A stretch of DNA of 64,000 nucleotides from positions 434,001 through 498,000 of the forward strand of contig JAMWFC010000053.1 of the NCBI GenBank assembly GCA_027475525.1. The letters run 5' to 3'. This DNA comes from Macrolepiota albuminosa (lineage: Eukaryota > Basidiomycota > Agaricomycetes > Agaricales > Agaricaceae). How positions within the stretch are numbered: the first letter of the stretch is position 1; each line of letters opens with the position of its first letter. A model generated the notes under the pieces. The model saw only the letters and a list, made by a program, of their open reading frames with translations. It did not search any database and was not told where the DNA came from. This document shows positions 5,445 through 33,462 of this stretch, piece by piece. The translations under genes were made by a program, and so were the position numbers.

Positions 5445-6378
5445 TGATGACGCCCAAAGTTTGGTCAGTAACAAATATATCTATAGTGTTACCGTACCAA
5501 TGGCTTGCGTTGGGCGCGCTATAAGTGTTGGGGGAGTTCCGGGCAGGTCCCAGAGAACGCGCCTGTGAAAAAGGTGTAAAGTCGGTAACGGGTGTCGGCA
5601 AGTGTAAGGCGCCAAGGCGAAGCGCCTAGGAAGAAGCGGTAAGTAAACACGGTAAGGTAAGCGGTAAGGACACAGTAAGCTTAGCGCAGTCTAAGCGTCG
5701 CTGATGCCTGCCGTAGCTGCAAGGCGCGAATAGGTCGAAGATTGGCGAGAGTCTGCAACTGCCAATGAATTCGACGTTGCCAACCGTAAATGAGATTTTG
5801 AGCGTAAGGGAGACTAAAGAAGTGGGAGCAGGAAACTCTGGTCGATTCTTGTTGTTATGGTACAAGTCGGTAAGTACTTTTATACTACAAAGAGTTCGCC
5901 GTCGCCAGTAGCCAAAGAGCGGTAAACTAGAAAATTTCATGAGGGGTAGCTCCAACTGTTTCAGATCCTGCCATCCATTCAAGACCCTTAGCGCCACCCG
6001 GCGGCAGATCGCGACGCTAAGCCATCAATCCATCCTTCTTCTGTCTATCAACATACCTAAGCGGTGTCAGACGCCAAATCGGTGGCGCTAAGCGATGTCA
6101 GCCGCCAAGGTCAAACGCCAAGCTGTCTGTCGGTGTTTGACAGATCATCAATCTTCTCGCTAAGCGCTGTCGTCAGTGACTGATGCCATCTGTCAGTTGT
6201 CATTCCTGCTGCCGTCGGCGCTATCATTGATCGGATCTGCTTCTTGCCGTGTCCGGCCGTCGGGAATGGCTTAAAATGGGTAAAACGCGTGCGCCAAGTT
6301 CGGAACGAGTGCGGCAAGGTTCCCGGAGCCGGTGCCGAGCCTGCCGTTGATGCGCCTAACCTGTATAGGGTCCTATCA
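5445..6378 (-). repeat. Element B 3' LTR
   Basis: This 934-bp copy has the same length as 32529-33462 and differs from it by five transitions, four of them at CpG. It is flanked on the left by CCGG and on the right by the polypurine tract. Confidence 0.93.
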
Positions 6379-6387
6379 TCTCCCCCC
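6379..6387 (-). other. Element B polypurine tract
   Basis: The minus strand reads GGGGGGAGA directly upstream of the 3' LTR, the expected plus-strand primer site. Element A has the same tract and the same flanking 30 or so bases at 10805-10840, so the two elements share this end. Confidence 0.8.
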
Positions 6388-6547
6388 AACTGAAAAATTG
6401 ACTGTCCTCAGTCACCAAATAAGGCTACCGTTACCGTTTTTGTGACATTTGGCCCGTGCGTTCTTGAGATTTGGTTTATAGTCCAGGCGCATGAGTGTGG
6501 ACTTCGTTTCTTCTCCCATCTCTACCTGGCGCTCAATTAAAATTAAT

Positions 6548-9500
6548 ATGTCTTTCCGCATTCCAACTCCGCCCCCAGTACCGTCTCGTGTGGCTCAAGA
6601 TGCTGCCTCCGCTTACATTGAAAAGGCCAACAAGTTTATTAGGTGCATCGAGGGTGTGGGCGCAGAGGCGCCTCCAAACTTGATCGTTGCCGTGATGAAG
6701 CTGTTGCAATGCTGGTATGAAGTTCGCGTTGATGACGCCAACTGTGGTTTGATGCGCTGGACGTATACGCAATACAACGCCGTCTCCAGCGCTTGGCGTG
6801 CGTAGGTGTGAGGAGTCCTGACAGGGTCCCGGTGTGCTCAAGTGGAGGTAGTAAATGATGCGCTAGATTATAGCGCTTCGGGGGCTACCTGGCAGACGGT
6901 AAGCGTCGTAGTTTAGGCAAAGATATTGGAGAAAAGACAAATAGCGCCGTGTATTGTGCCCGTAGGTGGCACCGTAAACGATGAAGACAAGACAGACAAA
7001 GCTAGCGCCCGACTTAGTGACGAAGTCAAAGGAGGCTACAGTTGCGGACAAGCAAACTCAACAAACTCGGTATCTCGGCAACCGATTGGTTCCTTGACTG
7101 GCCGATTTTTTGGTGAACTCCGGTAGTTGAAAAGAGTCCAAAAACAGTGTTCCGAAGTTTTTCCCGTGGATTTTGGCTCACACCAAATTTTTGGGACAAA
7201 GTGACACAATCTCAGGAGGGTAAATTTATGACATATGTACGACAAAATGTACCAAATTAGTTAATAACAGCCTCAATGCTCATCAAAGCACGGGCCGAGA
7301 TGGTGCGATGCTGCCTGTGCTTACGGACAGCCCACTCGGCAGCCTTCCCAGTGAGCCCACGGCGATAAGCATCCATAAAGCGCCATGAACGGTTAATGAA
7401 GCGCCGGATGACATCAACAGGACAAGCGTTGAGCCATTTGAGCGCTTCAGCCTTCGCATCCTCGAAACGGCTCTTGTCTGCCTCCCTGTAGCGGTACTTG
7501 CACCATCCCCAGTACTAATTGTTGTTGTTAGTAATTATTTGACCCTAATATAATGAAATTAGCGTACCATCTCAATCGGATTGAGCTCACAGTGAAATTT
7601 AGGAAGGAAGATACATAAATGGCCGGATTTCGTGATGAAATCTTCGAGCTGAGAGATTTGATTCTTGAAATCATCTTGCTGGCTCATCAGCCGGGCCATG
7701 CAGCAGCCCTGATTCTCGAATGGGCAGACAGGTGAGCATTTAGCGTGCAGGCAACTGACATCAAACCCTCGTTCCTTCAGAACAGACTCCAACCCTCGGG
7801 GACGGCCGTCCTTGTCTGTCATCTTCTGCACCTTCCCTCGTTTGTCGATAGCGGGGCTGTCATTGGGTATGATTGTGTTGTGTTGGTGGCGTTGTTTACC
7901 TCCATCCGACTTGTTCATTTCCCAAGCCCTGAGTGCATCAGGAGCCAGCGATGCATGGGCAGACGACTGATCGAAGATGAACAGCGCAACCTTACCTGGA
8001 TGTGCCGCCTCAAATATTGCAATAGCTTCCTTCATTTGCTCCAAGAGTTGAGCACAATCCCACCATCCATCCCCGTTTATGCCCGGAAAGATAATCTTTC
8101 TCGCGTCACGAACAATCTCCCCTTCCTCATTCATAAGGACCAATCGACCTGATGCAGGGTTGATGAAGTCCGACACATGAATTGCACGGCCACGACCTTT
8201 GCCCCGTAGTGGTCGTTCACCATCTCGAAACCTATTTACAATGTAAATAATGTATACACAGAAAATCATAAACAGTTACTCACCAGCCTTTGGCGCTGTA
8301 ATCATTATGATGGAAAATACTTTCATCGTGAAAGCAGGGAATGATCTCCTTTTCTCCCTCGGCCAAATTGGGTTTGGTTTTGTCAAGATCAGGACCATCT
8401 AAATGGGTCATCAATCTCTCGTACTCCTTCATTTGAGGAAGGAAAACCTCCTTCCGGTATTTCTTGACATCGTCGCATTCATGCCCGTCCATATACACTC
8501 CCTTCCTAATCTGGGTATGACGCCAGCCCAACCTGATCAACCATCGACGAGCCGTTTGGACGGAAATTGGCTGCTTTGGCTTGATACCGAGCTCGGAGAA
8601 GATGATCTCGTTGATTGCCTTTTGCAGACCCTTGGGCGTCACCTTCCCTGTCGGCAGATCTGCAAGGTACTCTCTTGCTCGCCTCTGGACTGCTTCATCA
8701 AAATGCGACAGAGCATTCTTGTGGCCGCCTCGGTGATCAACCGGTAGACGCTCGAATGTCTGGTAATGTCTTGCCAGAGCCCGGATCCGCCGTGCAAACC
8801 AAACCCCTTCGCTATCCCTCCACTGACGCGCAACTTTGAGACTTGCTTGAATATGAGAGACTCCCTTAATTCGAAGGGTTGTGAAGTTTGTGAGAATCAT
8901 AAATTTGTTGACATTGGTAATCGAATAGAGTTTATGGCGTTTCTTCAATTCATCCTTGATCTTGGCTCGTAACTCCTCCCAGGGCTTTACTCTTGCAGCT
9001 GGAAGGCTAAACGCTAGGTCAAGCTCTTCCTCCCATGCTTCAAGACGCATCTCCGGGCCTGTTTCCTCCAATCCTCGGCCTCCATCAGTTCCAACATCTC
9101 GGTTTCTTCGGGTGTTCTCTCCACTGCCGGCAACTCTTCCTCGATGGCATCAGGTTCTGGACTGCTGTCATCGCTGCTCCCTAATTCATTTTGGCTGGTG
9201 CGGTCTTCCTCAGCGTCAGATGTGACTGACATTTCTGATGCTGTCCGACTCGCTGGAGTGATTTCATTGCTCTCGGGAAGGTACAAACTTGGCTCTCTGA
9301 CAACGAAATTATCGAGGCGAGTCTGATCTTTGAACGCGTGTGCATAACGTTGCCTCGATCTGAGGGACTTGCTCATAACATCTGGACCTTTCGCGTAACT
9401 GGTTGGACGCGCTGCATTAATATATCTCAGGGTCCCGTCTGCTAATGAGCGTGTCATGTTACGTACGTTTGCATTCGCGACGAAGGGCTGGAGGGACCCA

Positions 9501-12500
9501 ATCATCATCTTTGGGATCATCCTCTAGCGCCATCTGTGCCATCCTGAGACCACACTCTCTATTATCCTAGTCAATCCATTCATCCTCGTCAATATCCGAT
9601 TCCTCTTCAAGTTCATCATCCAGCTCGCCATCAGGTCCTCGGGGTGCTTCTTCATCATCACATCCATCAATTTCCACGCTGTCAGTGCCGTAAATTGCAC
9701 CTGCCGCAAAGAAGTCACGGATTGACGCTTGTTTGAGTTCATCTTCGGGCAAGATTTTGGGTTTTTTAAATGGCCGTCCACGTCCCATTGCGTTCTGAGG
9801 TTGGACTCTGAGTGATGAGATAGTACGAAAAATGAATTTTCCAGAATTTTAGCTATTTTTTTCGAATGCGCCAAAATTTCGGGGTAAAAAAATCAAGATT
9901 ACGATTTATGGTAAGTGGTCGGTACCATTCGACTCTGCGTCCCAAAAGGAGTCGATTCCGATGGTTTTCGGGAAATTCCCACACCTTCCATGGCCTCCGG
10001 AAATGGCGACGAAAGTTTGATGAGTTTGCTTGTCCACAACTGTAGCGCGAGTTGAATGCTGAGTGTAACTGTTTGCTCGAGGGGTTACGATTCGTTGTTA
10101 TATATATGAAAAGTAGCTATTTTATATACAGTGCGCTACCATGTTTGCCAAGATACAAGTCCATCTGCGGCGCTACCTCCTAGCGCCTCTCCTCGTGGTT
10201 TACTCTAACGGCGACCTGTCAACGGCGACCTTGTGCACATGGCTGACGGCGACCAACAGCGTTATGACCCACGGCGACCTGCGGTGACTCTATATTGACT
10301 TAGAGTTGTACGAGTCTGCTCACTTTTCTATAACTCCGATTGGCCAGGCTGTTCCGGGGTATGGTCGGAAAATCCTCGACAGACGCCGTGAGCGCTAATG
10401 TCAGCGCTACTCATTGTATTAGTTCCTGTCAGGTCCAGATGTCGGATTTAAGTATATCCGGTGCCGCCGTCATTGATCCCTTTAGACTTCTGATTGAAGT
10501 GCCTCGTCTAATGGCAGCGCCTGCTGCTGGCTCCTTCTGGAAGTGATCGGGGTTTAGTTATAGTCCTCTCCCGCCGTTGTGTTAGCGCTATACGTTATGA
10601 GCCTCCTTCGTCCTTGGGCTAGGTGAAAGGAGAGTGCTGAAGGCTTGGTAGCTAGGGGTTAGGATAAATTTCTAAATCCTGTAGTAGTTTGCCAGAGCTA
10701 GAGCTGCTCTATACTCCCAACTGGTCGCCAGAGTCCTGCGTACGTCAAGTGTCGGTTGGCCTATAATGTCCCTTGATGCGCTCAGTCCGAGTAGAAGCCT
10801 ATCATCTCCCCCCAACTGAAAAATTGACTGTCCTCAGTCAAACGCCGTCATTAATTTGACTGCGCTACGGTCCGTAGAATGCCGCCGGCGCCTTATAAAA
10901 ATCGTTTTTTAGCCCTTCACCTTCTCGTGTTTTCCTTCCCATCTTTCCAACATGTCCACTCCTTTCGATGCCTCTGCTCTTCGCAATTTCCTGGCTAAAG
11001 CCTCTTATTTATTCGATCGCGCTAAGTCTGTCGGTCCCGCTGATGCGCCACAAACCGTCCCTGGCATTATGCAACTATATCGGCGCTGGCTCGTGGTCCG
11101 CGGCTCCGACAGTTCCTGGGCGCGGGGCGTCGAGGTTCGTGAATGGTGCATGGCTCAGTACCGTGAATATGAGGGTGCCGATTGGTTGCTACCGTTCGCA
11201 GACTTGTTCGTAAGTTTTTAGGTTTGATTTTAAGTTCGTGGCGCTAAGGTTCAGCGCCCATACTAGGCTCCTTCTCTATCCGACGAGATCGACGCCCTGC
11301 TGGCTAGTACCGAGGTTGGCGAGGTGAGTTCCCTCCTTTTCTTCCTCACATTTTCCGTGTTAACCCTGAGTAGTCGGTTGCTACGTCGCCCACCGTTGCA
11401 AGTCTTCCTAGTGCCCCGTCGGCCTCTACCGTTCCTTCCGTTCCGGCCGCTCCTGCTGCTCCTGTTTCCGTTCTGCCTCCTCCCATTCTTGGTAGTCCCT
11501 TTCGTGGCGATGCTTCTCCCGCTCGCCCTGCGCCCATCGTCGCTTCTCCCACTCGTACTGCGCCTCCTCACTCGGCCATCAAACGGATTGCCGTTACCGC
11601 CAGTGAGCCCCGGCCCGGACCTACCCATACTATTTCTCACCTTCCCCCCCGTAACTTCACCGTCGTTATTAATCGCGTGCCCCCTACTCTCGCTAGTCCT
11701 CCCAAACGTACCGTGCGTCCTTGTCTTCTTGCCTCTAGTTCTTCTACTCACTCTGCTTCTTAGGTCAATCTCCCTGCTCGTGTTGCCCCTTTGTATGTCA
11801 TAAGTGTTTCCTTTTAAGATCGCTTGTCTCTAGCGCCTGATCGAGCCCTCCTTAGGTGCCCAACCAAACTATGTTTACCGACGCGGAGCTTCGTGATTTG
11901 CTGCGTCTTCGTCGTGATACTACCGTCATTGATACTGGCCTCCCGGCTGGTGTCCAGGTGCTCGGCGCTAAGAAGAAGGTTACGGTGGCACCCGTGGAGC
12001 GCCGCGCCTTTAGGGCGAAGATTGGTGCGGTAAGTGCATGTTTGTCCCTGAAAGGTTGATGACGTCGCTAACTTCTTTCCCAGTGCGATAAATGCTGGTC
12101 TGAAAACGATCCTGAAGGTTGCTGGTTTCCTACCGCCTCTCTTCCCTGCTACCGTTGCAATGCGTTGAAACGGGGCTGTGCCTTCAATGGGATTCGTACT
12201 CGCGAACGTGGTAGGGACGCTATCATGCAGCGCAATTACGAGCACGCAGTCTTAGTTCGTAACGCCCGGGCCTTTGTGCTGCAGCAACGCGATTTGGCCG
12301 CTACTCGTCAGCCCACTGTGATTAGCGCTGCAAGTCTAGCGCTTCCCATCACCCAAGATGGTACTACCGTGACTGCCCCCTTTGCCCGTTCTCCCCGTCG
12401 TCCCGTCCCTTCGAAGCGTAAGCCTATTGTCGCCTCTCCTAGCAAGAGTCCCGGTAAGCGCCGGGAGCTAGCGCCTGCTACTCCTGTCGTCTTGTCTTCT

Positions 12501-15500
12501 ACCGAGTCGTCTACTGATGAAGGCGAGGATACCGAGAGGGACGCCGAGGGCGAGGATGATGATGAGGCTGGGCCTGTAGTCGACACCGATGCGCTGTTGG
12601 CGGTACGCGCTCTTCTGCTTCGCATTACTCCCCCTTTCGCCGCTAACCCTTATCAGAGTGGCCCCAGTGGTAACCGGTGCGTAGTCTTCGGGTTTTCTTC
12701 GCCAGGTAGTGCTAACCTCTTCGTCGCTAGTTCCCCTACTCCCTCGCTTCCGGTTGTCGTGAATATCCCTCCCGCCGAAGATGTCGTAATGTCTGTTGCC
12801 GGTGCTACCCCTGCTCCCGAGCCTGTCGCGGCTAGCGCCTCCCCCGTTGCCCTTCCTATTACACCATCTCTTACCCCTCCTCGTAGCCTCTCTTCTTTCC
12901 CCAGTACTCGCGAGTCCTCTACCGCGCCTGAGTCCGAAGAGACCCTAGTAGCTCAGGGCGAGCGCCGCCGCCGCTGGAGGTACTTGCCTTCCTATGGCAT
13001 CCACCTTTCTTCCGCTAGGGCCATGTCCCCAGGCGATGAGCGCCATGAATGGACCCCCCGTGCTCCCGTAACCGTTCGAGTAAGTCTGCATTTCCTAGTT
13101 AGTTCGCCTCTCCGCTGACCTCCTCTAAGTTCGATCCTTTTTGGACTCCTCCCCCTGCCATGCGCGTTTCCGGCGACGCCTATCCCTGGCTTGGGGATGA
13201 GTTCTCTTATCCTGTCACTCCCCTACGTCCTGCCGCCAATCTCCATCAACAACTTCGCCAGATCGAGGATGCGACTGACGTCGTTGGTAGCGAACTCGCC
13301 CTCCTCCGTCCTCGTGTCTCCACCTTAGCGTGCCGTGAGCTCCTCCTGCTTGAGCTCCATGACGACATCACTGATGCGCTTGAGTGGCAAGCGAGTAACG
13401 CCATTCAAGACGGGGACTTGCTTCCATTGGGTGATCCCGCTCCCTCCGCGTCTGATGCGTAGTCGCCGCGAGTAACGCCATTCAAGACGGGGACTTGCTT
13501 CCATTGGGTGATCCCGCTCCCTCCGCGTCTGATGCGTAGTTGCCAGCCCGTAGCGCTTCGAATTTCTGTGGACTTTGAAAATTTTGATACGTAGTTTGTG
13601 ATAGCCATACTAAAATAAACGCTCCCCTCCCCTTGTTTCGAAATCGTCAGTTTGTAAGTAATCAAAATACAAAGTAAGAAAAAGGGGAAACGCTCAGTAA
13701 ATCATCATGGCGTAAAAACCCCTATTACCAGCGCGACCCAATAGCCAATATCGCGCCAGCCTAGGAAGAAATAGGTATCGTCTGTAGAAAAATAAGTCGA
13801 TTCATGCAAGAAGTTTTAATGTATAAGAAAAGAGTGCCACTGATCGCTTGTGGTTATTCGGTGATGGTGGGTATAAGCGCTAGATCTCGAAGGTTAATAC
13901 CCTCTTTGTGCGACCTAAAATGGACTCCAGCGCATCCTATTGGCTCGTGTCTGCGTCAGGGTCCAAGCCCCTTGAGAAGTGCCCTCCCACGCTGTCGCTA
14001 GTTGAAACACCGTCCGAGCCCTATAAATTGCCCATGCCCCGACAGCATCTCATCAGTCTTCGCGATGGAAAGCCCAACCGGCATCGTGTGGACTGCCCGT
14101 TGTGATCGTGCTCATATCGTAATGGATCCCCCCACTTTCCTGGAATGCGCTACCTCGTTCTTCCACCACTACCCAGCGGTCGGCGTGCCCGGGCTGACCG
14201 ACGGAGTTGTTGAGTTAGGTCGTCGCTGCCAGCTACTTTGTGTGGCCTGTGAGATCTGGAACGATGACCTGCCGTTGACCCGTTTCGGTATGGAGAAAAA
14301 CTGGAGTCGGATTTTTCAGGTGCGCTATTGCCTTTTTCGCCCTCCTTCTCTTCTGATAGTCGCCCAATAAAGCAAATCGCGACCAAGGAAACGAAGGAGC
14401 ATCTTGAGTTGCTGCTGGAGGAGAGTCACTACCTGGTCCGTTACCTTATTACCTTGTTTTCTTCCTTCTAACGCATTGCCCCGCTAGGCGCCCCGCTCGT
14501 CTACTGGTGGCCGGCTTTTTTGCGGTCCAACTGAAGGCTGGCGGCCTTCCAGGCCTCTCCTTTTGCCCGGTCCTTGATACTCGTCCGTCTCCCATGTCGT
14601 TTATGTAAGTCGGCTTCTTCTTTTTCGTGGCGCCACCGGGCTGACAGATTTTGGCTAGTTGATTTCTTTTGTCATAGTTATATGAAATGCATCATTGTCT
14701 TCTCCCCCCCCCTCATGATTGTTTGCGCATGTAAGAGTTCCCAAGTATCCGCGACCCTGCAATCAGCATCATTGTCTTCTCCCCCCCCCTCATGATTGTT
14801 TGCGCATGTAAGAGTTCCCAAGTATCCGCGACCCTGCAACCAGCTGGAGGTATTTTATGGATTCTGGCGCAGTTAACCCAGTTAGTATCATATCATGCCA
14901 GAACCTTCCCTCCTTCTTGATGACCCCGTACTCATTCACCGGCCTCTCATCCTAGATCGCCTCGAGCGCTTCCTCGCGTTAATGCCTGACGGCGGCTTTC
15001 CGCAGGAGAATAGTAACATATTGACCCTTGTGCGCCGATACCGGATCCTTCTAGCGGCCTCCGCCGAATGGGAGATAGACACAGACCCGGCCCTAGTCAC
15101 CGTAAACCCTTTATTAGCGCATGTTTTAGGTAATACTTATGCGCGCCGTAGGAGCAGACCATTGCTGGTACCGCGTTGAGCCTTCATAGTCTTCTCCGCA
15201 AGACCGGGGGTTTGGTTAGTACCTGTACCCCTTTTTCGCCTGGCTTTGGTTAGCTAACTCCCTGCCCTTTTCTAGAGCCTTTCCTGGCTCCCTCTTCCGG
15301 TTCTTGTCAACCCTACCGCTAGTAGAGCCGTGCTCGACCGCGTGATCGTTCCTTTCACAGCTTTAGAGCGTCGCTTGGACGAGGCCGGGTGGTACTTGTC
15401 CCCTACTCGTCCCGCCGCTCCCCCGGGTCCTTCCCGCGCTCCACCTACAATCGCCCTTCCCGTGCCTCCTCGCGCTCCCGTACTTCCTTCTCCAGTCGCT

Positions 15501-18500
15501 CCCGCACCTCCTCCTCCAGTCGCTCCTCCCGCGCCGCCTAACGCTGCCATTCGTCCCCCTTCCGGTGCTCCTCCCGCCTATAGGCGACACAAGGAGCGAG
15601 TCAAGGGTCCTCGTCGGCGGTCGTCATCGTTGTCCTAAGCTTTTTGTAGTCAAGTATAGTTTGGTAATGCCGCATGTATTAGTATCGCCAAGTTATGCAC
15701 CCTTTTCATGATTACTAGCGCATGCTTTAAGTCCGTAGCAGGGGGCGCTAACCGCTGGCGCCTCGTTTTCCGTGGTCTTTTATTGTTCCTCTTCGTCATC
15801 AGGAGTGATCTCGTCATCGTCCACCAACTCAGTCTCTTCAAGCTCTCGCAGTTTGGCCGTGTCAATGTCTAGCGCCGGCAAAGGTAGTGGAATGTGTTCA
15901 CGCGCTAAGTAGGGAATGAGTCGAAACGCCGCTACCGGTCGATGCAAAACCGAGCCGTCCAGCTCGCAGAGTACGTAGGCTCCTCCCCTATTGCGGGAAA
16001 CGACTATGAGGGGCCCTAGGTATCGAGGTCGCATCTTTTTGTTATGGGTTACTTCGATTTTCGAGTTGCACATTAGCACCAAGGCGCCAGCTGTAAAGTT
16101 GTAGTCTCGGATAGTAGCGCTATGCTCGCTTTCAAATCGTAATGCGGCTTGTCGTCTAGCTTGAAATACCACCTCGTGTAGGCGCTCTAGATCCTCCATG
16201 CGTCGTTGTAAGTCAATGGCGCGCCTAGCGATAAGGTCGGTAGAGGACAGGATTGAGTTAGGTGGGGGTTGTAGGTATGTTGCCTCCACGATGTCTGCTG
16301 GAAGCAGGGGATGGGTGCCAGTCGCCGCGTAGTAGGGAGAGCAGCCCATCCTCTTCCGTACGGTAACTCGTTCGGACCAAAAAATCGAATAAGTCGCTTC
16401 GCTCCAGCGACTTTTGTCGCCGTCTACCGCCTTAAATAGCGCCTGTCATACGTCAAAATGTGGTCTCTCCACTATACCGTTAGCACGTTTATTGTATCCT
16501 GAGACTCAGATATGCTGTATGTTGTATTTCTTAGCGAGGTAGGTAAGCGCCTTAACTATTGGCGCTCCGTTGTCTGTAACAATCTCGTGAAGGGCTCCCC
16601 ATCTGCAAATAACATCTTTGAAGAGCCACTTAGCTATAGCGTCGGTATTTTCCCGCTGGAGCATACGGAACTCCGGCCAATGTACCAAAGAACACCTTCC
16701 CTGGATAATGTACTTGTAGCGTCCCGACTTGGGCATGTGCATAGTGTCGATATATATTTTTCCGAACAAGGGTGCTGGAGTCGCTACGGTTGGGGGTATA
16801 AGGACTTGGCGCGTCTGTTGGATTTGGCAGAGATGGCAAGTACGAATATACCATGCGATATCGGCGCTAACTTGAGGCCACCAAAAACGTTCCAATAAAT
16901 TCGCCCGCGTAGCGTAGAGTCCTCGATGTCCCAAGTCATCATGCATAGCGCGCAAGATCCTGACGCGGCCCTCTGGCTTGATTACTAATTTGTGAGCGCC
17001 AGACCTATTTCTTCGCCAAAGCCGATTTTCAACCACAAAGAAAGTCGTTGCATATCGAATGAAGGTGGCGTATTCCGTGTCCGTAAGGTCTGATGGTCGG
17101 CACAAATCCTCTTCTGACTTAGCCTTGGCGCTACGAGGTACCGCCGAATATGGAAGGTTGCGACTATCTTCCCGCAAGGGTCTTGGGTCCTCGACTATCT
17201 TTAGGTCGTTATATGGCTTAGCGACGTTATAGATACTGGCCGTGTAAAAGGTCGATGGAGCTTGATACAGTTTAGGTTGATACGGGATGATAGGGTGTAG
17301 CCAAGTCGAGACAGGTTGGTCTTCGCGAAGGGCCGAGCTTGATACAGTTTAGGTTGATACGGGATGATAGGGTGTAGCCAAGTCGAGACAGGTTGGTCTT
17401 CGCGAAGGGCCGAAATAGGCAATTGAATAATATGTATGAAACCGTGCAATCGGTCAATCCAGTCGTCAAATACGTCCTTATCGCTTTCGAAATAGGCAAT
17501 TGAATAATATGTATGAAACCGTGCAATCGGTCAATCCAGTCGTCAAATACGTCCTTATCGCTTTCATCTAGCGTTTCGTCCTCCGGCTGCCTAGGTCGCC
17601 TAGATAGTCCATCAGGTCCGTGAAACGCACTCTTAACATGCACGAGCTCGAAGTGGAACATTAGTATCGCTACTACCCAGCAATTCATGCTAGCCGAGGG
17701 TTGAATGTCTGGGTTCTGAAGCATCCCTTTGATGTAGCGTGCATCAACTTCGACGATCAGGTTTCGAACCCCAATAAGATACATGTGTAACGCCTGAAAC
17801 GCTTGAAATAATCCGTATAATTCCAGTTTGGGCTGACTATAGCGCAACTCTCTGTCGTTAAGGGTAATTGATCCGAAGCGATTGTAGCGTCTGATTTTTC
17901 GATTCGCGCTATCACATTGACATAAAAAGAAGCCGACCGCAATGTAAGAGGTGTCGACGGCAAGTATAACTGGATCGGATGTAGTATAATCGATGGGTAC
18001 CAATGGCTTCGCTTCCTGCAGCGCCTTCACTAAGTCTTTTTGGGCGTTAATTTGGTCGGGTCCGAATTCGAAGGGGACCCCTGAACGAGTTAAGCGATTT
18101 AGCGCGTGCGCTCGATGTGAAAAATGGTGTATGAACATGCGCAGCACGCCTACCGTGCCTAGAAACGCGCGAACTTCTGAGAGGTTATGGCAGATCCCCC
18201 ACTTCTCCAGAAGCGCTAATCGGCTCTCCTCAGGGATCCTGCCTTCTGGCGTGCAAACGTGCCTCAAAATTTTAAATTGTGGTGCGCAAAGAACCAACTT
18301 GTGTCCTGAGAACGTTCCACCACAATATTTCATGCGCTGAAGCACCCGGTTGACCAATTGGAAGAAGTCCCATAGCGCCATGCGGATATTAGGATTTTCC
18401 GGGTGCACTTCGGGCTTGCCATCTACAAGGCGCCAATCTTTTGGGCCCTTAACGCCAACATCGTCGATAAAACTAAGCACATGGTGGGGTATTTCGGGTT

Positions 18501-21500
18501 GTAGAATAAACGTAATGTCGTCGTGGAATATGGGTACCGAATTCGTCCACCCCATGGGAAGTGTAACCAGTCGTAGTGCTCCGAATGGCGTTTGAAATGT
18601 CGTTAAGTCGCGAGAGGAAGGGTGAATCAAGCGCTCGTCATAGCCAACGTACAGATCCAGGGTAGCGCCACATATTCTTCCCGCGAACGATTCAGCGACG
18701 TGATCGGGGAAGGGCGGTACCCCTGAATGACGAATCGTGACTTTGTTCAGCGGCTCCAGACTGTGAACTATACGTAGCTTGCCATTTTTCTTCAGTACAC
18801 AAAACCATCGCGACCGGTATGCCGAATTGGAAGGCTCGTAAACTCCCGCCGCTATTTTGGAACGAATAATTTGGCAAACCTCCGCTTCAATACCCGGCGG
18901 TATCGGTCGGTTATGCTCGGTCCAAGGTACATGAGGTATTGTTGGTATAACCACTGGTGGAAAGAAGTCAGTTCTCAGTTTACCGCGTTCAGAATCCTCC
19001 CAAGCAAATGCTTTGTTTTGTTTTCGCATAATGTCGGTCAATACATCTAGTTCCGCCGTCAATAGAAAGCCTGTATTGTGGGCGCTAAGGAATAGCGCCC
19101 GTCGTTCTTCCGTAAATTGTCCGGTAGGCTCGAAGGGTGGCGGGTTCGGATTAAGCTCGGGAAGGGTCACTAACGGGTCTCCAATGATTTTTCTCTCGAT
19201 GCGAAATTCTTCGGGTACGCCACTTGCTACCGGTTTCGTTTTAAGCGCTACTGGCTTGTATTTCTTTTTAACCTGAACCCCTTTGCGCTTAGGGGTACTG
19301 TTGTTAGCAAACGTATTATAAATGGAACTCTGGTTTCTAGCGAAACCGGATATCAAAGGTTCTTTAGAATCAGGGGAAGAAACGAAATAAGTGTCTGTCG
19401 AAAGATTTTCAGTAATATCGGATGCAGTGAGGTATAAGTAGGATAAAGCTTCGCTAGTAAGCGACGTAGAAGTGTTCAAGATTTCAGGGGCTAAAGGGGT
19501 ATATGATATAAAGGTTACTTGCCCAGTCCAATGATTATAGTCCAAAATAAGCGCTTCATCTCCATGATCCTCATCACTCATCTCCTCGATGGTGCCGGAA
19601 AACACTCGCAAGGGTCGTCGCTAACGTAAGGTCGCTTTCTTGGTCCAGGCTTCTGGAACCTCCCTCGGGGAAATGTCGGTACTGTTCTCCTAACTCCAGA
19701 ATTGGGGTCACTAATAGTTAGCGTCGTTTCCTCCTCGGACGTTGTTTTGACCACTGATCGTGCTAGCACATCGAAGGGCCTTCCTAATAATAAATCGTAG
19801 GCAGGCGATCTAAGTATGTGAATTTGTAGATAGAATGTAAGATCGCCTATAGCACATGGCACGTTCCGAGCCATCCCCAAGAATCGATCAATCGTGCCGT
19901 TAGCGCTCTGCATGTTAAGAATGATCGTTGGATCGTAAATGATACCCAGCTCGTTAGCGACGTCGGCAGCCATTGAAATAATTTGTGATCCGCTATCCAC
20001 GATAGACTCTATTTCGCTTTTCCCATCAACTGTCAGCATAATTGAGCGAATCGCGTGAGAGTCTTGGGCTACAGTCAAGATGGCGGGATCGTCGCTAGAT
20101 CTTAGCGATTTGAGGTAGGTTTCGACCGGGTCGACGGACGTGGCTTCTTTAGGTGGTGCGACCTCTTCCTTGGTTTCCGGAGCTACCGTCTCGGTTATAT
20201 ATGCGAAACCCGGCAGCGCGTCGTTGCATTCGTCCACCGTTGCTACATTGTTAGCTATGTTTCGTCGAGGGGTAACCACGGTATGCATCTGGTTCCTGAC
20301 GTCTGGCGCCACGCTGCATAACTCTCCTACCGATAGCATAACCTGACTTTGCATGATGCGATCAAAAACTAACTTCGACTTTTCCAGATCATATATAGGC
20401 GCTGTGGGTCGATATCCCCCCGTAGGTTTATCTGGCGCTCCGAAGTTACGATTTAGGGGCGGGGCGTAGTTGCCCCCTAGGCCAGCGTAAGGATGTAGCG
20501 GTGGTTCCGGAACGACCGGCGCCTTGGTGGCTTCTGGTACTTCGTCGTTAGTGCTAGAGGTTGAGGCTGGTGTTGGGGTGGGGCCTGTCGTCGTGCCCGA
20601 CGGCCTGTAATCCTTTAAAGGCTGCTTGCCCTTTTTGATCTCCACTCCATCGAAGACCTGATTCTTTAGCGACCTCAGTTCCTTTTCTAGCGTCTCAATC
20701 CTTTCCTCGCGGGACAGTGTGGGTCGGTCACTGATAGCGTTTAGCTGGAGTACCTCGTGAATTAGTGCTTGTTGAGGAGTCGCCTCCGCTTCTGTTGTCG
20801 TCGTGCTATTCAGGTTGCCTGTCGCTAAGTTCCCGGGGTTCCGACGGTGCCACTCGTCAATGCGTCCCTGGAACGTCTTATGCTCGGGATATAGGGGAAT
20901 GATAGCGCCCGAGGGTAAGACTAGTTTCCCGTCCATTCCCCGGCGCGCCTTCCCTTGTCGCAGATATTGTTCAAGGATAGCGCACCTACCCCTGGTCATG
21001 GTATGTCCTGCCTCGCCGCAAAAATGGCAAAGTCCCATTGGTACGTTGTTTCTAGGCGCCGAAAGACTAGTCGAGATCAAGGTTTCCAGTTTATTCATGA
21101 CGTTAGCGACTGCATTGTTAACGGCATTCTCCAAATCCTCCTTCTTGACGTACCCATTACGGTCATTGGCGGCGCTAGGTGCTGGCGACTCTGTCTTGGG
21201 TGCCATTCCTCCATGGTCCGCCCCAGGTCGCTGTAATGGTATACCCGTATCCGTGCCCTTTAATACCCACTTTCCTGCCTCAAAGACCTTTTCTATGTCG
21301 TATGGTTCCTCGGGGGTATACCCGTATCCGTGCCCTTTAATACCCACTTTCCTGCCTCAAAGACCTTTTCTATGTCGTATGGTTCCTCGGGTGATGGTCA
21401 TGCATAATGATCTCCAAGCGTCGCGCAATCTTAGTCCATAACGAAGTCGGGAATCCTTGTTGAAACAAACGGCGCTCCTCGTTCCCATATAACTTCCCAT

Positions 21501-24500
21501 TTTGGACCAGCCATCTCGCTATCCGCTGGAAATCACGATAATAAGTCGATAGCGCTCCTAAAGTATAGATACCAGCCGCGAAGGTGTCCTGTACTAGCTT
21601 CTGGATTTCCATTACCGTATAACGCGTAGCTTCTTCGGCGCCAGGATATAAATGAATGATAGCCTTTTTCCATTCATCATAGGTAAAAGGCCTAGGTGGT
21701 GCGTCACTAGTAAGTCCTTGGAACTCCTTCAGCCCTGTCCATGATTCGGCTGTGTCGTATGAGACGTATCTGGCGGCGTATTCTTTCATTTGTGTATCGT
21801 CGGTCACCCGGCAATCGCGTAGCAGATACTCCAACTCTTTGAAGTACTGCGTTAGTTCGCGAGGCTTCGTTTCGTCCCATTTTGGCGACGAGAAGTGGTT
21901 TCGGGGTGGCATGCGCTGATTGTTCGGCTGCTCCATACCAATAGGTGTGTTTGTCGAGGTAGGAAGAGTGGTGGTGCTCGTGTTACTTGGCGTCGATGTC
22001 GTAGGTACCGGCTCAGTTAGCTCCGAGTCGCTAGGTTCTGGCGATAATAACCTAGATAACTCTTCTAGAGGAGTAAGCGGCGTATGGTTTTCGCCTGCTA
22101 AGTACTCAAATGGTCGGGAAAAAGGGAAAAAGCTTTCGGCTAAGCTGTCTGGGGCGGCCTCAAGCTCCTGATCCAAAGTCTGTCTCGGTAGCGCGCCTGG
22201 TAAGTGTGGTGAGTCGGTGGTACTTGGTTCAAACGCACTCTCCAACAGGAGGCGGCGCTGTCGCGAGTTTCCGGCGGAATTCTGTCTCAGAAGAACCCCT
22301 CGTGGTGGGCTCCAAAATGATGACGCCAACTGTGGTTTGATGCGCTGGACGTATACGCAGTACAACGCCGTCTCCAGCGCTTGGCGTGCATAGGTGTGAG
22401 GAGTCCTGACAGGGTCCCGGTGTGCTCGAGTGGAGGTAGTAAACGATGCGCTAGATTATAGCGCTTCGGGGGCTACCTGGCAGACGGTAAGCGTCGTAGT
22501 TTAGGCAAAGATATTGGAGAAAAGACAAATAGCGCCGTGTATTGTGCCCGTAGGTGGCACCGTAAACGATGAAGACGAGACAGACGAAGCTAGCGTCCGA
22601 CTTAGTGACGAAGTCAAAGGAGGCTAGCGCGAGTTGAACGCTGAGTGTAACTGTTTGCTCGAGGGGTTACAATTCGTTGTTATATACATGAAAAGTAGCT
22701 ATTTTATATACAGTGTGCTACCGTGTTTGCCAAGATACAAGTCCATCTGCGGCGCTACCTCCTAGCGCCTCTCCTTGTGGTTTACTCTAACGGTGACCTG
22801 TCAACAGCGACCTTGTGCACATGGCTGACGGCGACCAACGGCGTTATGACCCACGGCGACCTGCGGTGACTCTATATTGACTTAGAGTTGTACGAGTCTG
22901 CTCACTTTTCTATAACTCCGATTGGCCAGGCTGTTCCGGGGTATGGTCGGAAAATCCTCGACAGACGCCGTGAGCGCTAATGTCAGCGCTACTCATTGTA
23001 TTAGTTCCTGTCAGGTCCAGATGTCGGATTTAAGTATATCCGGTGCCGCCGTCATTGATCCCTTTAGACTTCTGATTGAAGTGCCTCGTCTAATGGCAGC
23101 GCCTGCTGCTGGCTCCTTCTGGAAGTGATCGGGGTTTAGTTATAGTCCTCTCCCGCCGTTGTGTTAGCGCTATACGTTATGAGCCTCCTTCGTCCTTGGG
23201 CTAGGTGAAAGGAGAGTGCTGAAGGCTTGGTAGCTAGGGGTTAGGATAAATTTCTAAATCCTGTAGTAGTTTGCCAGAGCTAGAGCTGCTCTATACTCCC
23301 AACTGGTCGCCAGAGTCCTGCGTACGTCAAGTGTCGGTTGGCCTATAATGTCCCTTGATGCGCTCAGTCCGAGTAGAAGCCTATCAGCGTACTTGGCGTA
23401 GGGTGGGATAGGGAGATCGAGGTGCGGGAGTGGTGCCGAGCCCGCTATGTTGATAATCGTGGCGCCGACTGGTTAGCACCCTTCTCTCGTTTCGTAAGTT
23501 GCTCTTGTTGCCTGCCGTGTCGCTTAGCTGATTGCTCTCTAGGCGCCTCCTCCCGTCCCTACAATCGAGGACGAGTTGGAGGATATCTTGTCGGGTGCCT
23601 TGCCGATGACGGTAAGCGCGCCTGCACCTGAGTAAGTATCTCTAACCCCTTCTTTTAACTTAGCTTTGGTCTGACTTGTCGCCCCATAGTAAGCAGGAGG
23701 TACTTGCGCCATTAGCGCACCTGCAGGTGGAGGAGGAGCTCGCGGCTAGGCAGGAAGAGGTTTCCCAAGATGTCCACGAGATTACCAGGGCGCTAGAGGA
23801 GCGAGAGAGAGTTGCCACGTTGGCCGCAGAGATGGAGGAGGTTGCCGCAGGGAAGGCGCCTGCTGCTGAGAGGCAGGCGGTAGCAGAGGGATCCGGCAAG
23901 AGTGGTCACGTCGGCAGTGCACAGAGCCCAGCACTGCTGACTAGCAGGAAGGGCTCCCCAATAAAGCCGGGTAAGGCTTTGAAGAAGGTGAGTTTTGGGC
24001 CTATTCTTGCCGCTGCCGTGCCACGCTAACCACTGTTTCCAAGTCTCACAAGAGAAAGGCTCCCCAGTATGTGGTAAGCGGTCTTTTGGAAGTCTGACTA
24101 CTTTATTTACCGTGATTTCTCTAGGCGCCCACACAGTCCAGCTTTGATGACAAGGAGCTGAAGGGGCTGCTGTTGCCGCGTCGCGAGGAGGCCGTCCTTG
24201 ACGAGGGGCAGGAGGCCGGGGTTGTAATGGAGGAGATGAAGGGGAAGAAGACTGTTTCCTTGGCGACCCGGCAGGCGTTCAAGGAGACAAGGGGAGCGGT
24301 AAGTGACTTTTCTGTCTTTATTCTTTTTCTGACTTTTTGCGCTAGTGCGACAAGTGCTGGGCCGATAACGACCCGGAAGGCTGTTGGTTCCCGACTGGGG
24401 CCCAGCCGTGTTATCGTTGCGGCGCCTTGAAACGCGCTTGCACTATCGACGGGGCGAAGAGTCGCGAGCGTGGCGGCGCGCCAGACGCTCTCGTCGAGAA

Positions 24501-25617
24501 GACGTTTTCCCGCGCGGTGTTGGTAAGGAGGGCGAGGGAGTTTGTGGAGGGGCAGAGGAAGAAGGTGGCTGCCGGTGGCATGGCAGCAATTGGACGAGCC
24601 TCCTTGGCGTTGCCGACGCGCCAAGGAGATGGATCAGAATCTGTCGGTAATCGAGGCGCCGGCGAGCGCCAAGGGACTTCAGTCCCAGAAAAACGTCAAG
24701 CCCCTTCCCCAAGCAAGGGGAAGGGCAAAGCCAAGCGACCTCGGGTGGTCTCTTCGCCTTCTCCCTCGCCAGCCCCTCGTGACACCGAGATGGAAGACCT
24801 GGAGAAGGCGCTAGCGGCGAGTTGCCTGCCCCCTCAAGATCCCAAGGCAGGCCCAAGTGGCCTCTTGTCGCCCATCCATTTGGCAGCGAGGTCTCTTGGC
24901 GGGGAGGAGGAGGTGGGAGAGCGGGAAGAAGTCGGTGACTTGGCGCCACAAAAAGAGCGGGAAGAGGCCCCCGCAGACATGGAGATGGAGGACAAGGAGA
25001 AGGCAGAGGGAGCCGTAGCGGGAGGGGATGAGGATGCCGAAGGTGAAGAAGAGACTTTGGCGACTCAACGGGACGGTGGCGAGGAGGTGGCAGGCGAAGG
25101 GGAGGGAGCGGCAGGAGTTGCTAGGGAGGAGCCTGAGTGGCGATGGCTGCCGCCTTATGGCAACGTCGCCCCTTGGGAAGTGTCAGATCCTGAGGACGTT
25201 GCAGGACTAGCACTAAGGCGCCCCGTAGTCGCCAGGGTCAATCCTGATTGGACTCCCCAGCCACAGCCAACAGTAACCGGCGACGCCTTTAACTGGCTGG
25301 GGCAAGACCTCGTTTATCCGGTGGTGGCCCTTAACCCGCGGGAGATGCTGGAGCGGTTTGCCAGGAGGGTGGCAACGATGGAGGCGGCAATGGAGCGAGA
25401 ACGGGAGCGAGTCCGTGGGCAGCTTATGGTGCTCCGCCTTCGCTACTCTAACTTGGGTCGCAGTCTCCACGTTCTTCGCGACTACCAGGGCGATTGCCAG
25501 GCCGCCATGGATTGGCAAACCGCCAACGACATCCAGCCCGGCGACTTGCTTCCCCTTCGCGACTCCTCGTTGCCGGTTTCGGACGATTCTCTGTCCATGG
25601 ACGATAACAGTGATTAA
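6548..25617 (+). CDS. Antisense zinc-cluster-like gene of element B (717 codons, split by element A)
   Basis: With element A removed, the coding exons read 6548-6729 plus 23391-23493, then 23543-23611, 23664-23987, 24044-24073, 24125-24298 and 24346-25617. All introns are GT-AG and all joins are in frame, giving 717 codons plus a stop. The product begins MSFRIPTPPPVPSR. It has a Glu/Ala-rich probable coiled coil (exon 3) and a CX2CX8CX8CX2CX6C motif starting CDKCWADNDPEGCW, then a basic stretch and an acidic Ser/Pro/Glu-rich middle. The C-terminal domain carries GDAFNWLGQDLVYPV and DIQPGDLLPL. Exon order and the 174-nt exon match the antisense gene of element A. The cysteine spacing is near the fungal Zn2Cys6 type but not identical, so DNA binding is inference. 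Element A now separates the promoter from most of the gene, so this copy is disrupted. It is tail-to-tail with pol. Confidence 0.7.
7039..7067 (+). repeat. Left terminal inverted repeat of the DDE transposon
   Basis: It matches the reverse complement of 10014-10042 over 29 bases with two mismatches. Confidence 0.88.
7257..9788 (-). pseudogene. DDE transposase of the Tc1/mariner-like element, with stop and frameshift
   Basis: The minus-strand product starts MGRGRPFKKPK at 9788 and has an acidic linker. It continues with an exon containing TSYAKGPDVMSKSLRSRQRY and then the catalytic part. The three catalytic blocks are visible: HDESIFHHNDYSAKGW, then FIFDQSSAHASLAPDALRAW, then FHCELNPIEM continuing as YWGWCKYRYRE. 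Introns at 8232-8283 and 7515-7567 are GT-AG and restore the conserved GWFRDGERP and NPIEMYWGWCKY joins. The C-terminal exon ends at the TAA at 7257-7259. An in-frame TAG at 9567-9569 and a frame change near 9060 (EAEDW to EETGPEMRLEAWEEEL) break the protein, so I call it a pseudogene. Transposases of this kind are common in mushroom-forming fungi. Confidence 0.78.
10014..10042 (-). repeat. Right terminal inverted repeat of the DDE transposon
   Basis: It is the inverted partner of 7039-7067, followed by the duplicated TA. Confidence 0.88.
10805..10813 (-). other. Element A polypurine tract
   Basis: The minus strand reads GGGGGGAGA directly upstream of the 3' LTR. The adjoining plus-strand bases AACTGAAAAATTGACTGTCC are identical to those beside the LTR of element B at 6388. 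Confidence 0.8.
10894..10900 (+). promoter_or_regulatory. TATA box of the element A antisense gene
   Basis: TATAAAA lies 52 bases before the ATG at 10952, followed by a pyrimidine-rich stretch (CTTCACCTTCTCG), a typical fungal core promoter layout. It lies inside the element and outside the LTR, so the antisense gene seems to have its own promoter. Confidence 0.55.
10952..13462 (+). CDS. Antisense zinc-cluster-like gene of element A (729 codons, seven exons)
   Basis: The exons are 10952-11209, 11267-11323, 11374-11712, 11764-11796, 11856-12029, 12084-13079 and 13130-13462, all in frame. The second splice-site set of exon 4 is weak. The product begins MSTPFDASALRNFLAKASYL and shares EVREWC and GADWL with the element B copy. 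It has a Pro/Ser-rich stretch and the motif CX2CX8CX8CX2CX6C starting CDKCWSENDPEGCW. RERGRDAI, SAASLALP, an acidic segment and the C-terminal GDAYPWLGDEFSYPV and DLLPLGDPAPS follow. Exon 5 is 174 nt in both elements. There is one extra intron (13080-13129) relative to B. No homologue of known function is recognised, and a nucleic-acid-binding regulator is the simplest inference. The 3' end overlaps a 77-bp duplication, but the first stop (13460-13462) is unaffected. Confidence 0.72.
13391..13544. repeat. 77-bp tandem duplication 3 (13391-13467 / 13468-13544)
   Basis: The copies abut and differ at one base near the end (C at 13464, T at 13541). The last codons of the antisense gene are repeated. 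Confidence 0.93.
13545..14064. other. Spacer between antisense genes in element A
   Basis: No gene is supported here. The stretch GGGAAACGCTCAGTAAATCA near 13687 recurs after the antisense gene of element B near 25858, so it may be a conserved 3' end or terminator region of that gene. A TATAAATT sequence near 14020 could serve the next ORF. Confidence 0.4.
14065..14577 (+). CDS. Small antisense ORF set 2 in element A (about 135 aa, hypothetical)
   Basis: The first exon, 14065-14319, begins MESPTGIVWTARCDRAH and ends at a GTGCGC donor, giving 85 codons in phase 0. Plausible further exons are 14373-14435 (QIATKETKEHLELLLEES) and 14488-14577 (stop TGA). The first exon has nearly the same length as exon 1 of the main antisense gene (86 codons) and a similar helical layout with a late Trp. 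It may therefore be a shortened, diverged copy of that gene. A TATAAATT lies about 45 bases upstream of the ATG. No function is recognised and the exon joins are tentative. Confidence 0.4.
14689..14842. repeat. 77-bp tandem duplication 4 (14689-14765 / 14766-14842)
   Basis: The copies abut and differ by one T/C near the end (14763 versus 14840). It lies just upstream of antisense ORF set 3. Confidence 0.93.
14895..15638 (+). CDS. Small antisense ORF set 3 in element A (about 211 aa, hypothetical)
   Basis: Exon 1, 14895-15167, begins MPEPSLLLDDPVLIHRPL and includes RYRILLAASAEWEID. Exon 2, 15276-15638, includes VIVPFTALERRLDEAGWYLS, a long Pro/Ala-rich run and a basic end (RRHKERVKGPRRR). Donor GTACCG and an acceptor ending TTCTAG keep the frame. 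The order (N-terminal helical domain, Pro-rich linker, basic tail) resembles a reduced version of the main antisense gene. It ends 141 bp from the end of pol, tail-to-tail. Function unknown, intron choice tentative. Confidence 0.4.
17258..17411. repeat. 77-bp tandem duplication 5 (17258-17334 / 17335-17411)
   Basis: The copies are identical and abutting in element A pol, between RNase H and integrase. Confidence 0.95.
17411..17564. repeat. 77-bp tandem duplication 6 (17411-17487 / 17488-17564)
   Basis: The copies are identical and abutting, immediately next to duplication 5. Confidence 0.95.
19578..22290 (-). CDS. Element A gag-protease (frame split by a 77-bp duplication)
   Basis: The minus-strand product has a gag capsid-like part (WDETKPRELTQYFKELEYLL, IHLYPGAEEATRYTV, FQRIARWLVQNGKLYGNEER). 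An unusual zinc knuckle CX2CX4HX6C (CHFCGEAGHTMTRGRC) follows, and then a retropepsin with the active site AIVDSGSQ-type triplet (ESIVDSGSQIISMAADVANE) and LLLGRPFDVLARSVVKT. It overlaps pol by 34 bp. The duplication at 21238-21391 cuts the frame between DHHP and EEPYDIEKVFEAGKWVLKG. Deleting one copy gives the same join as in element B. The ATG at 21936 (MEQPNNQRMPPRN) is a possible start, but the frame is open and conserved with B well upstream of it, up to the primer-binding site. Confidence 0.8.
19598..19604 (-). promoter_or_regulatory. Candidate -1 ribosomal frameshift site, element A
   Basis: TGTTTTC on the minus strand lies in the 34-bp overlap of gag-protease and pol. A tRNA on TTT can re-pair with TTT one base back, which moves reading from the gag-protease frame into the pol frame. 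The same heptamer is in the overlap of element B. Confidence 0.5.
21238..21391. repeat. 77-bp tandem duplication 7 (21238-21314 / 21315-21391)
   Basis: The copies are identical and abutting. They split element A gag, and removal of one copy restores the frame seen in element B. Confidence 0.95.
22297..22314 (-). other. Element A primer-binding site (putative)
   Basis: The minus strand reads TGGAGCCCACCACGAGG three bases after the 5' LTR end. A TGG start is expected for pairing with the CCA end of a tRNA. Element B has TGGAGCCCACCGCGAGG in the same place. I could not assign the tRNA. Confidence 0.6.
22318..23386 (-). repeat. Element A 5' LTR (intact, 1069 bp)
   Basis: It is the intact partner of 6730-10804. 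It ends CCTATCA followed by GCGT, the same four bases that precede the left LTR. Confidence 0.93.
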
Positions 25618-26054: not shown

Positions 26055-27248
26055 CTAATCGTTTTCTTCTTCTTCTACTAGAGTCGGCAAGTCATCATCG
26101 TCCAATAATTCTGTTTCTTCAAGTTCTCTTAACTTGGCGGTGTCGATATCTAGCGCTTCAAGCGGCAAGTCAATGTGTTCTCTGGCGAGATACGGCAATA
26201 GGCGAAAAGCGGCAACAGGTCGATGTAGTACTGAACCATCTAATTCACAGAGCACGTAAGCGCCTCCACGGTTACGAGAGATAACTACCAAAGGTCCTAG
26301 ATAGCGCGGGCGCATTTTCTTGTTGTAGGAGGTCTCGATTTTGGAGTTGCGCATAAGCACTAGCGCGCCCCTCGGGAAGTTGTAATCCTTGATGGTAGCG
26401 CCATGCTCGGTTTCGAATCGCAGGGCTGCTTGGCGACGGGCGCTAAAGACTACCTCATGAAGTCTCTCCAAATCCTCTTTCCGTCGTTGGAGATCAATTG
26501 CTCGTCTGGCGATTAGGGCGGTAGTCGCTAAGATACTGTTAGGTGCTGGCTGAAGGTAGGTCGCTTCTATAATGTCGGCAGGGAGTAAAGGATGGGTGCC
26601 AGTAGCCGCGTAATAAGGAGAACAACCCATGCGCTTACGAATGGTAACTCTTTCCGACCAGAATACTGAATATGTCGCCTCACTCCAACGAGACTCGTCG
26701 CCATCGACCGCTTTGAAGAGCGCTTGCCGAACGTCAAAGTGTGGTCTCTCCACCAGGCCATTGGCGCGTTTGTTGTAGCCCGATATGCGGATATGATGGA
26801 TATTGTACTTCTTGGCGAGATAGGTTAGCGCTTTGATAATTGGCGCACCGTTATCCGTGACAATTTCCCTTAGCGCTCCCCAACGGCAAATGACGTCCTC
26901 AAATAGCCACTTGGCGACCGCCTCGGTATTTTCTCTCTGAAGTATTCGAAATTCAGGCCAATGGATTAGCGAGCAACGACCTTGAATGATGTACTTGTAG
27001 CGACCAGACTTGGGCATATGCATGGTGTCGACGTAAATTTTGCTGAAGAGGGGAGCTGGCGTTGCCACGGTTGGCGGTATGAGCACTTGGCGCGTTTGTT
27101 GAATTTGGCAGAGATGGCAAGTCCTGATGTACCAGGCGATGTCGGCACTAGCGTGGGGCCACCAGAACCGTTCTAGCAGAGAAGCTCGGGTAGCGTACAG
27201 ACCTCTATGCCCTAGCTCATCATGCATGGCGTGAAGAACCCGTAAGCG

Positions 27249-32528: not shown

Positions 32529-33462
32529 TGATGACGCCCAAAGTTTGGTCAGTAACAAATATATCTATAGTGTTACCGTACCAATGGCTTGCGTTGGGCG
32601 CGCTATAAGTGTTGGGGGAGTTCCGGGCAGGTCCCAGAGAACGCGCCTGTGAAAAAGGTGTAAAGTCGGTAACGGGTGTCGGCAAGTGTAAGGCGCCAAG
32701 GCGAAGCGCCTAGGAAGAAGCGGTAAGTAAACACGGTAAGGTAAGCGGTAAGGACACAGTAAGCTTAGCGCAGTCTAAGCGTCGCTGATGCCTGCCGTAG
32801 CTGCAAGGCGCGAATAGGTCGAAGATTGGCGAGAGTCTGCAACTGCCAATGAATTCGACGTTGCCAACCGTAAATGAGATTTTGAGCGTAAGGGAGACTA
32901 AAGAAGTGGGAGCAGGAAACTCTGGTCGATTCTTGTTGTTATGGTACAAGTCGGTAAGTACTTTTATACTACAAAGAGTTCGCCGTCGCCAGTAGCCAAA
33001 GAGCGGTAAACTAGAAAATTTCATGAGGGGTAGCTCCAACTGTTTCAGATCCTGCCGTCCATTCAAGACCCTTAGCGCCACCCGGCGGCAGATCGCGACG
33101 CTAAGCCATCAATCCATCCTTCTTCTGTCTATCAACATACCTAAGCGGTGTCAGACGCCAAATCGGTGGCGCTAAGCGATGTCAGCCGCCAAGGTCAAAC
33201 GCCAAGCTGTCTGTCGGTGTTTGACAGATCATCAATCTTCTCGCTAAGTGCTGTCGTCAGTGACTGATGCCATCTGTCAGTTGTCATTCCTGCTGCTGTC
33301 GGCGCTATCATTGATCGGATCTGCTTCTTGCCGTGTCCGGCCATCGGGAATGGCTTAAAATGGGTAGAACGCGTGCGCCAAGTTCGGAACGAGTGCGGCA
33401 AGGTTCCCGGAGCCGGTGCCGAGCCTGCCGTTGATGCGCCTAACCTGTATAGGGTCCTATCA
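32529..33462 (-). repeat. Element B 5' LTR
   Basis: This 934-bp LTR is followed by the CCGG target duplication. It is 99.5 percent identical to 5445-6378 by direct reading. Confidence 0.93.

Follow-up and report, generated by a model that had tools for sequence, protein, structure and literature searches.

Several LTR retrotransposons are known to carry an antisense open reading frame between pol and the 3' LTR, among them the plant elements Retand (TRP28), Grande (gene23), RIRE2 and PvRetro13 (excerpts of PMC7264820 and PMC11963269). The same arrangement has been described in fungi, where Boty of Botrytis and Sclerotinia has an antisense gene in this interval (excerpts of PMC7264820, PMC11963269, PMC8365987 and PMC4227169). 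This gene, brtn, belongs to the Boty-like Ty3/gypsy elements of Botrytis cinerea and is credited to Zhao et al. 2011 in the citing text (excerpts of PMC7264820, PMC8365987 and PMC4227169). Antisense genes in such elements thus have precedent: Boty in fungi, and Retand and Grande in plants. The 64,000-nt stretch of Macrolepiota albuminosa DNA analysed here (the window) contains two elements, A and B, each with a multi-intron antisense gene between pol and the LTR edge. A previous sequence-only reading had reported these genes, and the coordinates, strand and exon joins are all present in the sequence.

Element A (6730-23386) is nested within element B (5445-33462), which it interrupts in exon 1 of B's antisense gene; each has an LTR pair and pol domains, with gag-pol on the minus strand. 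The target duplication is GCGT in A (6726-6729 and 23387-23390) and CCGG in B. TG..CA LTR ends, a short target duplication and a polypurine tract identify both as LTR retrotransposons, and the minus-strand pol order of protease, reverse transcriptase (RT), RNase H and integrase zinc domain, in A without an RVT_1 match, marks them as Ty3/gypsy-type. In B, the protease lies at 29845-31863, RT and RNase H at 27878-29872, and the integrase zinc domain at 26055-27227. In A, the protease, RNase H and integrase zinc domain were found in that order. The RVT_1 profile did not match A pol, and its score against B (1.5e-4) fell below the cut-off; the sequence matches of the B RT open reading frame include Ty3 and retroviral RTs, with a PDB match to Ty3 RT at 1.3e-12. 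The RT open reading frames (17272-19611 in A and 27878-29872 in B, minus strand) are very divergent, so such elements may escape RT-based surveys.

The 934-nt LTRs of B (5445-6378 and 32529-33462) show 5 differences, and those of A (6730-7038 plus 10043-10804, against 22318-23386) show 16 over 1071 aligned nt. LTR divergence is therefore greater in A, yet A is the nested element; conversion, chance or assembly could explain the mismatch. The left LTR of A contains an insertion of about 3 kb (7039-10042) with minus-strand open reading frames at 7559-8269 and 8280-9071, neither of which has a Pfam match. Stretches of exactly 77 nt, 99-100% alike, are duplicated in tandem at eight places (3898, 4929, 13391, 14689, 17258, 17411, 21238 and 27249), and other copies show overlaps of similar length at different places. 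These duplications are probably an assembly fault, one that disrupts the pol frames. In the genome searched (100 Mb, 129 contigs), hit pairs at one constant spacing (G000:C126, 281,388; G000:C110, 44,048) suggest large duplications or duplicated assembly.

The antisense gene of A (10952-13462, plus strand) has exons at 10952-11209, 11267-11323, 11374-11712, 11764-11799, 11856-12029, 12084-12676, 12731-13079 and 13130-13462. Seven exons had been reported earlier, but there are probably eight: the 54 nt at 12677-12730, which are in frame, have GT..AG ends in all 21 rows of an alignment of the window copy with 20 further fetched copies, and contain an in-frame TAA in both copies examined from a subfamily (L048 and L049) in which all other exons are open. 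The product is 712 aa long with eight exons, or 730 aa if this likely intron is counted as exon. Among the 121 A-type places listed, the long exon is interrupted by one or more in-frame stops at 63, and in 52 of these 63 there is exactly one, a TAA; L048 and L049 are the two of these 52 that were fetched. The spliced frame is unbroken in 12 of the 21 rows, the remaining nine being truncated, frameshifted, stop-bearing or interrupted by an insertion of about 77 nt. Nearly all rows have GT donors and AG acceptors, the exceptions being five AT donors (one in intron 1 and four in intron 4) and a CTG acceptor in intron 3. The intron-4 donor is GTAAGT in 16 of the 20 rows having this intron and ATAAGT in the window copy, L013, L022 and L030. 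These conserved splice sites fit the earlier argument that introns would survive retrotransposition because they are recognised in the antisense transcript, the genomic sense RNA carrying them reversed.

The antisense gene of B, also on the plus strand, begins with the part of exon 1 at 6548-6729, placed by alignment with intact copies, where it is cut by the A insertion. It continues at 23391-25617, with exons to 23493 and at 23543-23611, 23664-23987, 24044-24073, 24125-24298 and 24346-25617, the lengths and splice sites having been set by comparison with other copies. The 174-nt exon and the cysteine motif CX2CX8CX8CX2CX6C that A and B were said to share are both present. Most intron positions were also said to agree; the last intron of the A gene is absent from the B gene. 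Of the 12 B copies fetched, eight can be read through without interruption after splicing; a frameshift affects L039, the upstream sequence of L043 is unrelated, and L041 and L044 contain one stop each. In five copies (L037, L038, L040, L041 and L044) exon 4 is shorter and its acceptor shifted with the frame kept there, a change difficult to account for if the intron were not in use.

A dN/dS near 1 between copies had been named as evidence that would count against a functional gene. The values are far from 1, with medians of 0.220 for A (19 rows; 170 of 171 pairs; range 0.084-0.421) and 0.10 for B (28 pairs of the eight unbroken copies; range 0.069-0.270), and a codon model on the seven-exon reading of A gave an omega of 0.29. 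Informative sites in the A gene are commonest at codon position 3 in every exon counted; as a control, the pol end read on the pol strand in 15 copies gave 58, 18 and 18, with third positions in excess. These results support maintenance of the spliced antisense gene by purifying selection in several element types. They also bear on whether the antisense RNA itself is the product, acting through double-stranded RNA control with the reading frame incidental. PMC7264820 (excerpt) considers antisense RNAs that control retroelements, but this explanation is contradicted by codon-level conservation (dN/dS of 0.10-0.29, a third-position excess in every A exon and the compensating splice shift), making it very improbable.

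Homologues of the antisense gene are numerous in the genome. The long A exon gave at least 123 matches, representing at least 121 places, and the last B exon was found at at least 99 places, showing that the gene was kept by many copies and is not a host gene captured once and then lost, as the sequence-only reading had asked. At least 150 A-type and 106 B-type pol ends were compared. Among the matches listed, A has 82 gene-pol pairs within 7 kb; in 80 of them pol follows the gene on the opposite strand, and in two it lies upstream on the same strand. All 32 B pairs within 5 kb have pol downstream on the opposite strand. A further 41 A and 67 B places are without a neighbour among the listed pol ends, which has no bearing either way. 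In the fetched A copies, pol order and orientation to the gene are as in the window in 19 of 20 (pol is not reached in L015), and the LTR end is likewise placed in 19 of 20 (not in L022). The gene is thus an aORF-3R, the class defined by a conserved coding sequence that runs antisense to gag-pol in the interval from pol to the 3' LTR and recurs in many copies. The protein relatives found are all named Termitomyces (18 and 39 in two overlapping lists) and annotated as hypothetical proteins of the fungus, as would be expected if the supposed element gene were in truth a family of host genes or had been captured once from the host. Such a mistake is hardly credible for a gene whose position relative to pol is constant across at least 220 places of two types, and a third type besides. 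An ancestral host locus with neither LTR nor pol would revive the idea, the searches covering the listed matches, but we consider it highly unlikely.

Two further antisense genes lie in A, both on the plus strand. Gene 2 (14065-14577; exons 14065-14319, 14373-14435 and, less certainly, 14488-14577) has GT/AG intron ends and a third-position excess in exons 1 and 2, though not in exon 3. It occurs at at least 150 places; at 86 of the 121 places listed for gene 1 it follows that gene downstream in the same orientation, and at none is it nearby on the opposite strand. Gene 3 (14895-15638; exons 14895-15101, 15158-15214 and 15276-15638) gave at least 152 matches and shows a third-position excess in all three exons (12-16 copies), weakly so in the small middle exon (3 against 2: 4, 0, 5). 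Both genes keep their splice ends in most copies compared.

A third type of the first antisense gene, C, is present in L045, L046 and L047, and in the first two of these pol lies on the strand opposite to it. In a comparison of B with one C copy (L046), 379 of 390 residues are identical at the pol end, with a synonymous difference of 0.27, against 241 of 381 in the long exon, with a synonymous difference of 0.74. In 60-codon windows, the synonymous difference is 0.55-0.92 throughout the long exon and 0.17-0.33 in pol. The best explanation for such divergent gene types on nearly the same pol is exchange of the antisense module between elements, the alternative being that pol was homogenised by conversion. 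The gene-3 stretch is perhaps another exchanged module: in the A copies L026-L029 there is no strong match to window positions 14762-15742, though both sides align, and in L026, L028 and L029 the stretch aligns with many differences. Divergent gene types on one pol could also mark distinct self-recognition groups, were the protein a self-limiting factor that lowers the copy number of its own element. The restriction factor p22 limits Ty1 copy number in yeast. Selection on the gene in many copies would suit such a role, but Pfam reveals no similarity to Gag, and we consider it improbable.

The N-terminal part of the antisense protein is predicted to be helical (pLDDT 84), and fold comparison of this part gave no telling match. 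A long C-terminal helix is also predicted, in a model otherwise of low confidence (pLDDT 57), including over the cysteine motif. Besides the six-cysteine motif, which is present in 16 of 18 Termitomyces homologues, there are acidic and serine/proline-rich stretches. Whole proteins matched no Pfam family at E<=1, nor did the motif regions at E<=10, the HMMER filters dropping most weak matches, and NCBIfam and PDB-sequence searches with the antisense protein found no match. The Zn(2)-C6 fungal zinc cluster (PF00172) is not supported as the identity of the motif, having no profile match and a canonical spacing, CX2CX6C...CX2CX6-8C, different from that found here. The term 'zinc cluster' in the sequence-only reading came from the cysteine spacing, with no Pfam family behind it, and may be regarded as a fair guess.

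In A, the LTR end, polypurine tract and a dyad, TGACTG-TCCT-CAGTCA, lie together at 10800-10840 (dyad 10825-10840), corresponding to 6374-6414 in B (dyad 6399-6414). With the two preceding nucleotides, this block forms a 43-nt run identical in A and B, which starts at the LTR end, stops with the final base of the dyad and is followed by immediate divergence; the identity stands against the saturated synonymous sites of the A and B genes. No change to the dyad is seen in any of the 20 A rows reaching it or in 10 of 12 B copies; of the other two, L037 begins beyond it and L043 has unrelated sequence at this place. A TATA-like box, TTATAAAA (10893-10900, plus strand), 52 nt before the ATG of the A gene, is also unchanged in the 20 of 20 rows reaching it. 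The dyad pattern occurs at 767 sites in the genome and the reversed pattern at 36. Fifty of the 767 sites were checked: 23 lie beside a listed gene or pol and 27 beside none, and one has pol on the unexpected strand. At the L047 dyad, where pol is present with no listed gene, the fetched DNA has an open C-type long exon. The LTRs show no enrichment of dyad half-sites. Sites of zinc-cluster proteins are usually of the CGG type, a class to which the dyad does not belong.

We tentatively propose that the antisense gene encodes a nuclear DNA-binding regulator of the element, the likeliest of the functions considered. The element would be ambisense, with gag-pol read from one LTR and a second transcript, in the opposite direction, starting at the TATA-like box just inside the other LTR and then being spliced. 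Its product of about 710 aa, with a helical N-terminal part, the six-cysteine motif and a long C-terminal helix, would enter the nucleus, bind DNA via the cysteine motif and pair via the long helix. It may act on the element's own control DNA beside the LTR, where the invariant dyad by the polypurine tract is a candidate target, and binding would adjust element transcription or escape from silencing. In support of this are the fixed antisense position, purifying selection, the conserved splice sites and the frame-keeping splice shift, together with the TATA-like box, the 43-nt block, the cysteine motif of the Termitomyces homologues and the predicted C-terminal helix. Counting against it are the lack of a Pfam, NCBIfam or PDB-sequence match, the low model confidence over the cysteine motif, a dyad that is not CGG-type, could form a hairpin in the sense RNA and has half-sites unenriched in LTRs, the 27 of 50 dyads beside no listed gene or pol, the one pol on the unexpected strand, the changed intron-4 donor in the window A copy and the interruption of the window B copy.

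The possible hairpin also allows a role in priming. The protein might act after transcription, binding new cDNA, genomic RNA or the integrase complex near the polypurine tract and aiding plus-strand priming, nuclear import or target choice. That the conserved block joins LTR end, polypurine tract and dyad, and that the sense dyad is able to fold as a 6-bp hairpin, would agree with this. To our knowledge, however, Ty3/gypsy elements elsewhere manage these steps with Gag and Pol alone, and a separate antisense promoter-like region suggests expression uncoupled from genomic RNA; we therefore think a post-transcriptional role rather unlikely. Returning to the nuclear regulator, a broader and more doubtful, if possible, extension is that these are ambisense elements combining sense gag-pol with an intron-rich unit on the antisense strand that holds up to three genes and its own promoters, that this unit is exchanged as a module between lineages, and that the protein recognises the invariant dyad beside the polypurine tract, so that each element would carry a switch of its own for transcription or anti-silencing.

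If the protein is made, the elements would carry a second, spliced gene unit that survives reverse transcription since the genomic RNA carries it in reverse, giving a retroelement a natural means of keeping introns. Several antisense genes per element, divergent types on nearly one pol and a dyad at hundreds of sites make a specific binding test possible. If the Termitomyces homologues are also element genes, fungal gene sets contain such genes unrecognised.

The antisense genes of A and B can be compared with several known systems. HBZ of HTLV-1 is likewise an antisense gene for a nuclear regulator in an LTR retroelement (excerpt of PMC11963269). HBZ differs in belonging to a retrovirus. We take it to be a different protein from the antisense product of A and B. 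The VANC anti-silencing proteins of Arabidopsis VANDAL elements are element-encoded and thought to act on short motifs in their own element; VANDALs are DNA transposons and VANC is an unrelated protein, offering a lead only. Grande gene23 of maize is antisense, has a promoter of its own upstream and encodes a nuclear protein, though one reported without similarity to other proteins (excerpt of PMC7264820), and is set beside A and B by description alone. Retand has conserved antisense TRP28 open reading frames between pol and the 3' LTR, with proposed DNA binding and regulation of transposition (excerpt of PMC11963269). In contrast, the TRP28 domain (PF04195) has no Pfam match in the A and B proteins scanned, and the word 'intron' is absent from the main text of PMC11963269. 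Boty is the nearest fungal likeness, a Ty3/gypsy element with an antisense gene at the same position as in A and B (excerpt of PMC7264820). The lack of precedent in fungi that the sequence-only reading implied therefore fails for the antisense gene as such but stands for a zinc-cluster gene, and we found no description of intron-rich antisense genes or of a cysteine-motif protein in fungal Ty3/gypsy elements in the excerpts of open-licence PMC text consulted. Boty Gag-Pol has a chromodomain (excerpt of PMC4227169), whereas Pfam finds none at the pol ends of A and B (no family, and the integrase zinc domain only), brtn being known here by description alone. Set against these systems, what is new here is the probable eight-exon gene of A, the additional antisense genes at 14065-15638, the 43-nt identity between A and B ending in the dyad, and the presence of a third gene type beside a pol that is 97% identical.
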